A stretch of DNA of 50,708 nt from positions 1 to 50,708 of the forward strand of contig CAJWQD010000013.1 in NCBI GenBank assembly GCA_913045135.1. The letters are read 5' to 3'. A model generated the notes under the pieces. The model was not told where the DNA came from and did not search any database. It saw only the letters and a program-made list of their open reading frames with translations. Source of the DNA: an uncultured Flammeovirgaceae bacterium. Lineage in GTDB: Bacteria > Bacteroidota > Bacteroidia > Cytophagales > Cyclobacteriaceae. Below, piece after piece: positions 341 to 8,980 of the stretch. Position 1 is the stretch's first letter. Each line of letters starts with the position of its first letter. The position numbers were made by a program, and so were the translations under genes.

Positions 341-1468
341 TTGAAAGTTAGAAAAATCTGGCCCGTAATAAAGTGGGTTTTATTCCTCCCTATTATGTTT
401 GTCTTTTACGTGGTGGTGAATCTTTTTCATGCTACCTTAACCGACTTTGAACCTCCTGAAAAAACAATTTTAGATATTAAAAAAAATGGTAGAAATGAAC
501 TTATCACTTCACCCACACTTAGTTTTTTAAATTGGAATATAGGCTTTGCCGGGATGGGCGAAAAATCGAATTTCTTTTATGATAGTAACCAAAGCTTTTT
601 CTTTTCTAATGGGAAAATGGTTCGATCTCCAAAAGCTTTCGTAGATGAAAACTTAGAGGGTATCATTGACTTTATTCAGTCGAATCCAACGGATTTTGTT
701 TTGCTACAAGAGGTAGATCGATCTTCCAAGCGAAGCTATTATCAAAATCAACATGATTTGATATCAGCCCGTCTAAATGGGTACTCACAACATTTTGCAT
801 TCAACTACCAAGTAGCTCGGGTAATTATACCGTTATTTAATCCATGGAATGTATTAGGTAAGGTAGCCAGTGGATTGAGTAGTTACTCCACCTTCAATCC
901 CATCAGCAGTGATCGTTATCAATATCCAGGAAAATACAATTGGCCAGATTATCTTTTTCATCTTGATCGTTGTATGTCCGTTCAACGATACCCTACATCG
1001 CAGATTTCAGGCAAAGAACTGGTGGTTATTAACACTCATAATTCGGCATATGACAAAGGGTATCTAAAGCCTAAAGAAATGGCTTATTTGAAAACATTTT
1101 TGTTAGCAGAATATGAAAAAGGAAATTACGTAGTGGTCGGAGGTGATTGGAACCAAAATCCACCCGGAGTTAGTAATGATCAGGTAAGTATTGCTGCGAG
1201 CGTATTACCTAATATCCCTTATCAATCCTCCCAAATTGACGACAATTTTATGCCAAAGAATTGGAAATGGGTTTTTGATCCTCTGGTTCCCACGAGCCGA
1301 AGTCTGGTGGATGTACTGGATTATGGCAAGACACCAGTTGCTTTAATTGACTATTACTTGATATCTCCAAATATTGAGATCATAGAAGTAAAGGGTTTCA
1401 ACCTAAAATTTCAGCACTCAGATCACAACCCTGTGATGATGAGGGTACGATTAAAAGAACTACAGTAA
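341..1468 (+). CDS. Membrane-anchored endonuclease/exonuclease/phosphatase family protein
   Basis: The 375-residue product has the motif series of the EEP (DNase I/exonuclease III/sphingomyelinase-like) fold: LNWNIG near residue 63, LLQEVD with the metal-binding Glu124, THNS near 232, GDWN with Asp269/Asn271, IDYYLIS near 336, and the terminal SDHNP with Asp361/His362. These form the metal-dependent phosphodiester active site of the family. Residues 7-29 are a hydrophobic anchor, so the catalytic domain probably lies outside the cytoplasm. The start is taken as TTG at 341: it keeps the whole anchor, there is an in-frame stop at 308, and the first ATG (395) would cut the anchor. Substrate (nucleic acid, phospholipid or sugar phosphate) cannot be told. 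Confidence 0.85.
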   Translation: MKVRKIWPVIKWVLFLPIMFVFYVVVNLFHATLTDFEPPEKTILDIKKNGRNELITSPTLSFLNWNIGFAGMGEKSNFFYDSNQSFFFSNGKMVRSPKAFVDENLEGIIDFIQSNPTDFVLLQEVDRSSKRSYYQNQHDLISARLNGYSQHFAFNYQVARVIIPLFNPWNVLGKVASGLSSYSTFNPISSDRYQYPGKYNWPDYLFHLDRCMSVQRYPTSQISGKELVVINTHNSAYDKGYLKPKEMAYLKTFLLAEYEKGNYVVVGGDWNQNPPGVSNDQVSIAASVLPNIPYQSSQIDDNFMPKNWKWVFDPLVPTSRSLVDVLDYGKTPVALIDYYLISPNIEIIEVKGFNLKFQHSDHNPVMMRVRLKELQ

Positions 1469-1484
1469 GTTTAAGTCAAAATCA

Positions 1485-1522
1485 AAATAAAAGAACCTAG
1501 CAATGCATAAGTTCTTTTATTT
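1485..1522. terminator. Bidirectional hairpin terminator
   Basis: A near-perfect inverted repeat, AAATAAAAGAAC (1485-1496) and GTTCTTTTATTT (1511-1522), with a 14-base loop lies between the convergent ends of the EEP gene and sodA. The A-rich 5' arm and T-rich 3' arm make it work as an intrinsic terminator in both directions. Confidence 0.75.
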
Positions 1523-1530
1523 CCGATGAA

Positions 1531-2136
1531 TTATTTGGACTTACTAAATCGGCGGCTAACTTCTTCCCAATTGATTACATCAAAAAAAGCGTTGATGTAA
1601 TCTGGCCTTCTGTTTTGGTAATTAAGATAGTAAGCATGCTCCCAGACATCTAGACCTAAAATAGGTAGTCCCTCACATCCCAGACCTGGCATCAATGGAT
1701 TGTCCTGATTGGCCGTTGAGCAAACTTCTAACTTGCCTCCGTTTCCGACACAAAGCCATGCCCACCCTGAACCGAATTGAGTTGCTCCAGCGTTGCTGAA
1801 ATCTTCTTTAAATTTCTCAAATGAGCCAAAAGCGTCATCAATGGCTGCCGCGAGGACCCCCTTAGGTGCCCCCCCGCCGGTTGGGCTCATAACCGACCAA
1901 AATAAAGAATGATTCCAGTGTCCTCCTCCATTATTGCGAACAGCTGGGACGTCGGTGTACCCTTTAATCAATTCTTCAAGAGATTTTCCTTCCATATCAC
2001 TGCCGCTAACCGCTGCATTTAGCTTAGCTATGTATGCGGCATGGTGTTTACCATGATGAATTTCCATAGTGGCCGTATCAATGTATGGATTTAATGCGTC
2101 TTTTGCGTAGGGTAAATTTGGTAGTTCAAATGCCAT
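1531..2136 (-). CDS. sodA: Superoxide dismutase, Mn-type
   Basis: Converts superoxide to oxygen and hydrogen peroxide in the cytoplasm. The 201 residues cover the full Fe/Mn-SOD family. Metal ligands are visible: His27 (MEIHHGKHH), His76 (NHSLFW), Asp163 and His167 (LDVWEHAYY). The STANQD motif near residue 140 places a glutamine from the C-terminal domain next to the metal, as in Mn enzymes, so Mn is more likely than Fe; cambialistic use is possible. There is no signal peptide. It follows tadA by 73 bases, with its own candidate promoter in the gap. Confidence 0.95.
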
Positions 2137-6330: not shown

Positions 6331-6365
6331 GTGCTTAAGTTTGTTTTTGAATCGAACGTGAGCTC

Positions 6366-6453
6366 GATTTATTAAGAAGTGTTAAGAGACAGGCTCGTTG
6401 ACGCGCTAGCAACCCCCCTGCTTAGAGGAAGGTGCTAATTCCTGACAAATAAA
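6366..6453 (+). promoter_or_regulatory. SAM riboswitch, S-box (SAM-I) type, short variant
   Basis: The conserved S-box core is visible in order: AAGAG (6389 region), GTTGA, GCAACC (6408 region), then a GGAA-GGTGCTAA-TTCC hairpin (6428-6442). TTTATT (6367-6372) can pair with AATAAA (6448-6453) to close P1. The element lies upstream of metY-metX, the expected target of SAM feedback. The P2 region is shorter than in Firmicutes S-boxes. No strong intrinsic terminator follows, so control could act on translation or on a later attenuator. Confidence 0.85.
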
Positions 6454-6462
6454 TGGATGATT

Positions 6463-6603
6463 ATGACAAAAATTCAAAAATTAAAATTCCAATTATCTCT
6501 GATATTGATGGATACAAAATTGTATCTCTCATTAATTACAGACTATTTCAGTTGCTGCTTTTCGTGTCATGATTGTACACGTTTCGCACGAACCCAACCA
6601 TAA
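6463..6603 (+). CDS. Putative cysteine-rich leader peptide (46 aa)
   Basis: Between the riboswitch and metY an ATG at 6463 opens a 46-codon frame ending in TAA at 6601-6603. The N-terminal half is Lys/Leu-rich (MTKIQKLKFQLSL). The C-terminal part reads YFSCCFSCHDCTRFARTQP, with four cysteines in eight codons. Such a cysteine cluster before sulfur amino acid genes suggests a leader peptide whose translation senses cysteinyl-tRNA or stalls the ribosome. A small hairpin (CGTGT 6563-6567 with ACACG 6577-6581) overlaps the cysteine codons. The ORF is short and overlaps another 39-codon frame (6453-6572), so coding is inferred, not proven. Confidence 0.5.
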   Translation: MTKIQKLKFQLSLILMDTKLYLSLITDYFSCCFSCHDCTRFARTQP

Positions 6604-6612
6604 TTCTATTGA

Positions 6613-8972
<2,360 letters not shown>

Positions 8973-8980
<8 letters not shown>

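Follow-up and report, generated by a model that had tools for sequence, protein, structure and literature searches.

The locus analysed here raises the question of what a SAM-I (S-box) riboswitch acts on when a short open reading frame follows it closely. In the window, that is, the whole stretch of 50,708 nt under study, the aptamer adjoins the start of a leader ORF with clustered cysteine codons, unlike the usual SAM-I arrangement, and not a clear terminator or the start of metY. The initial annotation had proposed that SAM and cysteine are both sensed by this leader, and such a dual input appears to be the best reading of the sequences, since the frame is kept throughout the genus and Cys-rich ORFs stand at the same place in other genera. 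We estimate at roughly three in four the probability that a two-input leader controls metY-metX, with the genes on only under low SAM combined with low cysteine; as the pairing of aptamer and Cys ORF recurs in many relatives, metY is probably shut off by either of the two. One same-genus leader, that of assembly G001, speaks against this reading, keeping the ORF with only 2 Cys. Other observations against it, given below, are the metY leaders with few Cys or a different spacing, the scarcity of terminator-like signals, the weak 1:2 and modest 2:3 pairing in the window, an ORF pN/pS only slightly under that of the other frames, the two unremarkable covariation counts, the weakness of any general pairing of the Cys run and the restriction of the anti-P1 hairpin to the genus.

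The metY leader in the window and in its genus

The S-box-like aptamer noticed at first sight proved to be a whole SAM-I aptamer by covariance model, scoring above the curated threshold of the family (64.2 bits, with a gathering score of 44.4 bits for RF00162), and it is the single match to this model in the source assembly (2.1 Mb, 82% complete). Like other members of the family, it lies before methionine biosynthesis genes (Table 1). The 46-codon frame described behind it is also present, running from ATG 6463 to the stop codon at 6601-6603; its four Cys codons (first positions 6553, 6556, 6565 and 6574) fall within eight codons and form no unbroken run, and the encoded peptide ends in FSCCFSCHDCTRFARTQP. 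Initiation at ATG 6457 would give 48 codons, and ATG 6463 is the likelier start, since it is kept in all eight same-genus leaders and the G006 leader has no first ATG. No clear terminator was found 3' of the window leader ORF, in agreement with the earlier remark that none follows the aptamer. The metX-like gene overlaps metY by 29 nt, and its product (326 aa) scores under the MetX cut-offs.

Table 1. Features of the metY-metX leader region and genes, in window coordinates
Feature	Position	Strand	Details
SAM-I (S-box) riboswitch aptamer	6366..6455	+	RF00162, 64.2 bits, E 1e-12, model 1-108
Aptamer P1 strands	6366-6373 (5') and 6448-6455 (3')	+	
Anti-P1 hairpin (6349-6355 with 6364-6370), reaching into the aptamer	6349..6370	+	Predicted fold
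Cysteine leader ORF, 46 codons	6463..6603	+	ATG 6463, 7 nt 3' of P1
Mid-ORF hairpin, GATACA with TGTATC	6511..6526	+	Window fold
Cys codons 33, 34, 37, 40 (from ATG 6457)	6553..6576	+	Proposed stalling site, region 1
Region 2	6606..6613	+	Two nt after the stop codon; pairs with region 3
Region 3	6630..6642	+	Predicted pairing with region 2 or region 4
Region 4	6653..6665	+	Predicted 3:4 hairpin
metY, O-acetylhomoserine/O-acetylserine sulfhydrylase family	6700..8028	+	TIGR01326, 651.5 bits, cut-off 495.1
metX-like homoserine acyltransferase	8000..8980	+	Best model TIGR01392, 285.6 bits, under the cut-off of 500

The same-genus set comprised ten assemblies, the window's own included, and eight of them hold a metY leader. 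The best metY match in G003 is only 38% identical, so this assembly seems to have no metY ortholog, and the contig of G009 starts within metY, with the leader region outside it. Absence of the frame from relatives had been named as what would refute the initial annotation, and aptamer and leader ORF are in fact kept as a pair in 8/8 testable assemblies, the window's included, with 2 (G001) to 6 (G006) Cys per leader. A search with the 48-residue peptide at E < 0.01 recovered six same-genus assemblies (G001, G002, G004, G005, G007 and G008), each frame lying directly behind an aptamer and before metY. Further matches at this threshold were a second one in G005, with internal stop codons, and one in G023, inside a 491-codon open frame, and similarity of peptide sequence is confined to close kin. 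G006, which is not among these matches, has at the same place, before a metY of 84% identity, a frame of 42 codons that includes five consecutive Cys. The search for the leader peptide on plasmids gave one match, at E 10 and under a transposase, and the search of viral contigs with metY gave no relative.

Retention of the frame within the genus might also mean that the ORF encodes a working Cys-rich microprotein that binds metal, thiol or sulfide, and two features of the peptide agree with this: codons 1-13 have a pN/pS of 0.28, and a C-terminal sequence of the type CCC[RH]H..MRLARI recurs in 5/8 same-genus leaders. The low value near the start could, however, reflect the initiation region, and codons 14-31, which overlap an RNA hairpin, reach 1.07 (codons 32-48, 0.81). 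Over the whole ORF, pN/pS is 0.76, only slightly under the 0.89 and 0.85 of the other frames, so strong protein-level selection was rejected, and there is probably little selection of this kind. Besides, the peptide (P0001) matches no NCBIfam model, and outside the genus it is chiefly Cys content and position that recur. We thus consider a microprotein unlikely and retain the two-input leader, in which the codons themselves would matter.

Cysteine codons and ORF position behind metY aptamers

Two wider samples were drawn without regard to Cys codons, one from the best-scoring S-box matches listed among 146 relatives (30 loci and 80 more) and one from named metY loci (the best 80 of 591 matches). 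An S-box core was recognized by pattern in 149 of 197 loci, same-genus loci included, and the next gene was metY in 85 (assigned at a minimum of 55% identity), metH in 40, another PLP enzyme in 12 and some other gene in 12. After removal of 3 redundant metY leaders, 146 loci were left, 82 of them metY. An ORF of 15-90 codons stands in the expected place in 75 of these 82, against 31.8 expected from dinucleotide shuffles, and 54 of the 82 non-redundant SAM-metY leaders have a Cys-rich ORF (3 or more Cys in 12 codons), against an expectation of 1.38. In the metH control, 11/40 leaders have an ORF in the expected place (9.7 expected), and no Cys-rich ORF was found in the SAM-metH leaders (0/40; 0.06 expected); the other PLP loci and the other genes gave 2/12 and 3/12. 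The remaining 28/82 metY leaders stay below this Cys threshold, L044, for instance, having none.

The Cys triplets also keep to the reading frame: runs of (TGY)3 in the metY leaders number 101 in the ORF frame, 0 out of frame inside the ORF and 5 outside these ORFs, as counts of overlapping starts that are not independent. Examples of leader endings are MCCCCCCC (L209), ACCCPCCC (L058) and CICMCCCCC (L088, Mucilaginibacter). Pedobacter, Hymenobacter and Pontibacter are, with Mucilaginibacter, among the genera in which such a leader occurs. The expectation of a conserved Cys-rich ORF in other genera is thus borne out in place, behind metY SAM aptamers, with different sequence. A chance ORF was ruled out by the shuffles and the metH control, that is, by comparative counts across loci and not by the window alone. 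With codon attenuators the metY leaders share a small ORF in which the regulatory codon is repeated and which relatives conserve.

The initial annotation had left open whether such a leader is a codon attenuator or an arrest peptide, and of the two, codon-run attenuation fits better, since across genera the Cys codons recur and the peptide sequence does not. An arrest sequence in the nascent peptide, stalling the ribosome in place of codon starvation, would agree with the tail before the stop (for example, RLARIHT or RFARTQP), which the genus keeps in part. In other genera, however, many leaders stop at the Cys run or within a few codons of it and have no such tail. In Sphingobacterium sp. GVS05A (L098), an ORF 10 nt after P1 ends in IAMSMRMRMHMHLPTC, where Met codons form the run otherwise made of Cys codons, as though Met had replaced Cys as the amino acid sensed. 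Arrest by the peptide is, for these reasons, quite improbable, and stalling through Cys-codon starvation is preferred.

Cys-codon ORFs were also sought by other routes. Among the 30 loci listed for a pattern of four Cys codons and a stop in 146 genomes, 5 have an ORF that begins with ATG and is in frame with the Cys codons; one of these 5 is accompanied by an S-box. Allowing ATG, GTG or TTG starts, 7 of 40 metY loci without an S-box core within 1000 nt have an upstream Cys-rich ORF (9 ORFs in total). The most leader-like ORFs before metY with no recognized S-box (L105, L119, L132 and L136) have runs of Cys or of Met mixed with Cys, such as MAMYMCCMC in L119.

The position of the ORF relative to the aptamer was compared in loci with known Rfam P1 ends, 39 of the 82 metY loci and 39 metH loci (L059 left out). 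In 39/39 metY loci, the distance from P1 to the ORF start is 6-15 nt, being 8 or 9 nt in 28 of them, and 28/39 have at least 3 Cys. Unlike these, the metH aptamers have no ORF at 6-15 nt (0/39), and only 3/39 have one within 60 nt (at 1, 29 and 39 nt). An ORF was found at 4/11 other PLP loci: two that are Cys-rich, at 8 and 9 nt, and two more at 0 and 40 nt. In the named set of 39, which includes two repeats (L062 of G007 and L093 of L047), 31 loci have an ORF; its start falls in the 5-15 nt range in 28, and 21 of the 39 loci reach 3 Cys or more. Nine S-box loci outside the pattern set were examined separately, one incomplete locus being left out: a metY locus (L219) has an ORF at 9 nt ending CCCCC, a ferredoxin locus one at 9 nt with CCCCCC and a metZ-like locus one at 7 nt with one Cys; one of three metH loci has an ORF (at 30 nt), and two others have none.

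The 5-15 nt spacing is absent from 11/39 named loci. Seven (L082, L086, L096, L101, L133, L134 and L139) have a P1 of GATAA or GATGA type and no ORF at 5-15 nt, which looks like a second architecture before metY; L096 shows by eye a hairpin with a T-run, and L101 has a Cys-run ORF farther off, at +336 from the core. The second ATG of L062 lies at 7 nt, the P1 end given by Rfam seems misplaced in L067, and L075 has a 9-codon ORF only. L076 has no leader ORF, and metY itself begins 34 nt after an A/U-type P1, so that direct SAM control of metY translation is possible there.

In most other named loci, the 3' strand of P1 is AUAUAAAUU or close to it, so P1 closure would bury the region just 5' of the leader ATG. 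The tight spacing points to the start of the leader ORF, and not metY itself, as the direct target of the aptamer; with 7 nt between P1 and ATG 6463 in the window, the aptamer would be able to occlude this start, as in riboswitch-controlled uORFs. A plain SAM riboswitch controlling metY, with the ORF incidental, would be an ordinary case of SAM-I control of methionine genes, and S-box metY loci such as L096 and L076, which have no adjacent leader ORF, are in line with it. Such a reading is nevertheless very improbable in view of the Cys-rich ORFs of metY leaders and their absence from metH leaders, the in-frame Cys triplets and the narrow range of distances at which the ORF starts, all of which agree with a two-input leader.

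RNA structure and the output of the leader

In classical trp/his-type attenuators, a codon run is followed by a stop codon just before region 2, and a 2:3 hairpin competes with a 3:4 hairpin. The leader resembles these in its codon run and in the stop just before region 2, and competing 2:3 and 3:4 hairpins may form in it. It differs from them in that no U-run terminator was found in the window's genus and in the metabolite aptamer beside the leader start, and, as the U-run is missing, we do not file it as a classical transcription attenuator.

Pairings were compared in alignment A2 of seven same-genus leaders, with G006 left out. The 2:3 pairing is predicted in 7/7, with 8/8 pairs in five leaders and 7/8 in the window and G008; it is modest in the window (-5.1 kcal/mol) and shows double changes at 2/14 pairs. 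The 3:4 hairpin is likewise predicted in 7/7 leaders, at -5.5 to -7.6 kcal/mol, with a different outer stem or register in G008; the 7 pairs of the outer stem are complete in 5/7 leaders, 6/7 form in G008, and the stem is misaligned in the window. Pairing between the region around the Cys codons and region 2 (1:2) ranges from -12.4 to -2.7 kcal/mol and is weak in the window (-3.2) and in G001. The hairpin that the initial annotation had placed over the Cys codons exists in a weak form (alignment columns 220-223 with 228-231), and 3/4 of its pairs form in the window.

Two further helices lie 5' of the Cys codons. The mid-ORF hairpin carries compensatory changes, with both sides changed at 4/8 aligned pairs; 6/8 pairs form in the window, where the best hairpin is shifted, and 6/8 in G001, and it is perhaps an RNA polymerase pause. 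The anti-P1 hairpin would compete for the 5' strand of P1, and its pairs form (7/7) in all seven aligned leaders; 6/7 are invariant and 1 varies on one side, with no covariation (the alignment has no window row there). Outside the genus, no complement of at least 6 to the P1 5' strand was found in 26/29 metY loci, and a general anti-P1 hairpin was rejected as confined to the genus.

Across the anti-P1, mid-ORF and 2:3 helices, 95.4% of cells are paired, against at most 41.3% in slid controls, and 13 double-change cells were counted, against 4.7 in shuffles (0/500 as high) and no more than 4 in slid controls. Neither the number of pairs with a double change (6, of which 4 are in the mid-ORF hairpin and 2 in 2:3; 33/500 shuffles as high) nor that of further pair types (14; 51/500 as high) is striking.

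Structure statistics for the wider set cover 57 of 58 Cys leaders (54 metY and 3 others; L184, with no gap before the gene, is out), six of which are same-genus leaders and not independent. The 75 nt after the stop codon are more structured than shuffles (mean z -1.49; 16/57 below -2), and the first 75 nt of the ORF have no excess structure (mean z -0.09); outside the genus, this post-stop excess is the only structural feature shown. Pairing between the Cys run and the sequence 3' of it was dropped as a general feature, being weak (mean z -0.65; 12/57 below -1.5). An intrinsic terminator as general output was dropped as well, a crude scan having found a terminator-like signal in only 4/57 leaders (0/6 same-genus leaders included).

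We infer SAM binding, start occlusion, stalling and output, the output being the weakest step. At high SAM, P1 would close and ribosomes could not start the leader ORF, as the position of the A/U-rich P1 3' strand 7 nt before the leader ATG suggests. With charged Cys-tRNA in short supply, a ribosome would stall on the Cys codons, a step to which the codon runs point. In the same-genus leaders, the stalled ribosome would then free region 2, so that 2:3 could form and metY be expressed. Region 2 would be covered by a ribosome at the stop codon and could be held by region 1 where the leader is untranslated; 3:4 would form in both cases and metY would be off. Weak or Rho-dependent termination and a translation block are candidate ways in which 3:4 may act.

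The same two inputs might have another output, namely Rho-dependent termination or mRNA decay after leader translation, and not a 2:3/3:4 switch. This is a version of the preferred explanation, so the probabilities of the two overlap, and we hold it possible, if clearly short of even odds. The scarcity of terminator-like signals is consistent with it, and, in the accessible parts of the sources, the mycobacterial Mbox is described as controlling a uORF in concert with Rho-dependent termination (PMC12810186) and Rho is suggested for actinobacterial Cys leaders (PMC1262725). The conserved hairpin immediately 3' of the stop codon, which shows double changes within the genus, and the excess post-stop structure in the wider set argue instead for the 2:3/3:4 switch.

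Related systems and other targets

Each half of the leader has known counterparts. Actinobacterial poly-Cys leader ORFs, as far as described in the available text of PMC1262725, are short, have Cys-codon runs near the stop, precede sulfur genes and are missing conserved terminator hairpins, all of which the metY leaders resemble; they differ in that no riboswitch is described with them there and in belonging to another phylum. The actinobacterial Cys ORFs of Canestrari 2020 are leaderless by the title of that work, as cited in the available text of PMC9094748, unlike the window ORF, which is preceded by a 90-nt aptamer, if both are on one transcript. In Rhodobacterales, uORFC-8-2 before cysS has tandem Cys codons in a structured leader; it differs in having two Cys codons and a U-run terminator, with no aptamer mentioned in the part of the source available (PMC8632094). 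In Mycobacterium tuberculosis, B12 (PMC11260477) and Mbox (PMC12810186) riboswitches govern the translation of a small upstream ORF, as is proposed here; the aptamers are different ones, and the accessible parts of these papers do not describe the ORFs as amino-acid codon-run sensors. No report of a SAM-I aptamer paired with a Cys ORF was found in the open-access literature searched, absence there not being absence in print, nor is the pairing shown in the available portions of PMC12452182, PMC2258182, PMC3766115, PMC2965389 and PMC7366714. As far as open-access searches reach, the separate kinds are known and the coupling of a SAM-I aptamer with a Cys leader is new.

An S-box with a Cys-run ORF was also found in L143 and L218, where a ferredoxin gene and then a metZ-like gene come next; in L194 (by eye), before a ferredoxin-like gene; in L159, before a metZ-like gene; in L245 (S-box recognized by pattern alone), before a sulfite/nitrite-reductase-like gene; in L213, before osmC and then metY; and in L164, before an NhaC-like gene, several of these gene assignments being matches under curated cut-offs. 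Most of these targets are sulfur genes, which fits a sensing of sulfur status. In L245, two successive Cys-run ORFs (1268-1593, minus strand), one ending CCCCCCC and one containing CCCCCC, sit between the S-box core and the reductase-like gene. In L223, a Cys-run ORF ending CCCCCC (1501-1602, minus strand) has no S-box core in the 150 nt preceding it, and a SusC/RagA-like receptor gene follows 190 nt later.

We lean slightly towards the view that a single composite device governs a Bacteroidia sulfur regulon comprising metY-metX, ferredoxin with the metZ-like gene, sulfite reductase, osmC-metY and the NhaC-like transporter. In this device, the start of a Cys-codon leader ORF would be the sole expression platform of the SAM-I aptamer. 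The device would form a SAM/cysteine logic gate with an exchangeable sensed amino acid, as the Met run of one Sphingobacterium suggests. Two known sensors would thus be joined in series into one gate that recurs in many genera. Shine-Dalgarno use is weak in Bacteroidota. Considering this, and that the leaders are mostly devoid of terminator signals, action through a leader ORF would, if true, explain how SAM-I riboswitches can work in this phylum. The unannotated short ORFs beside Bacteroidota riboswitches would then deserve annotation as sensors.
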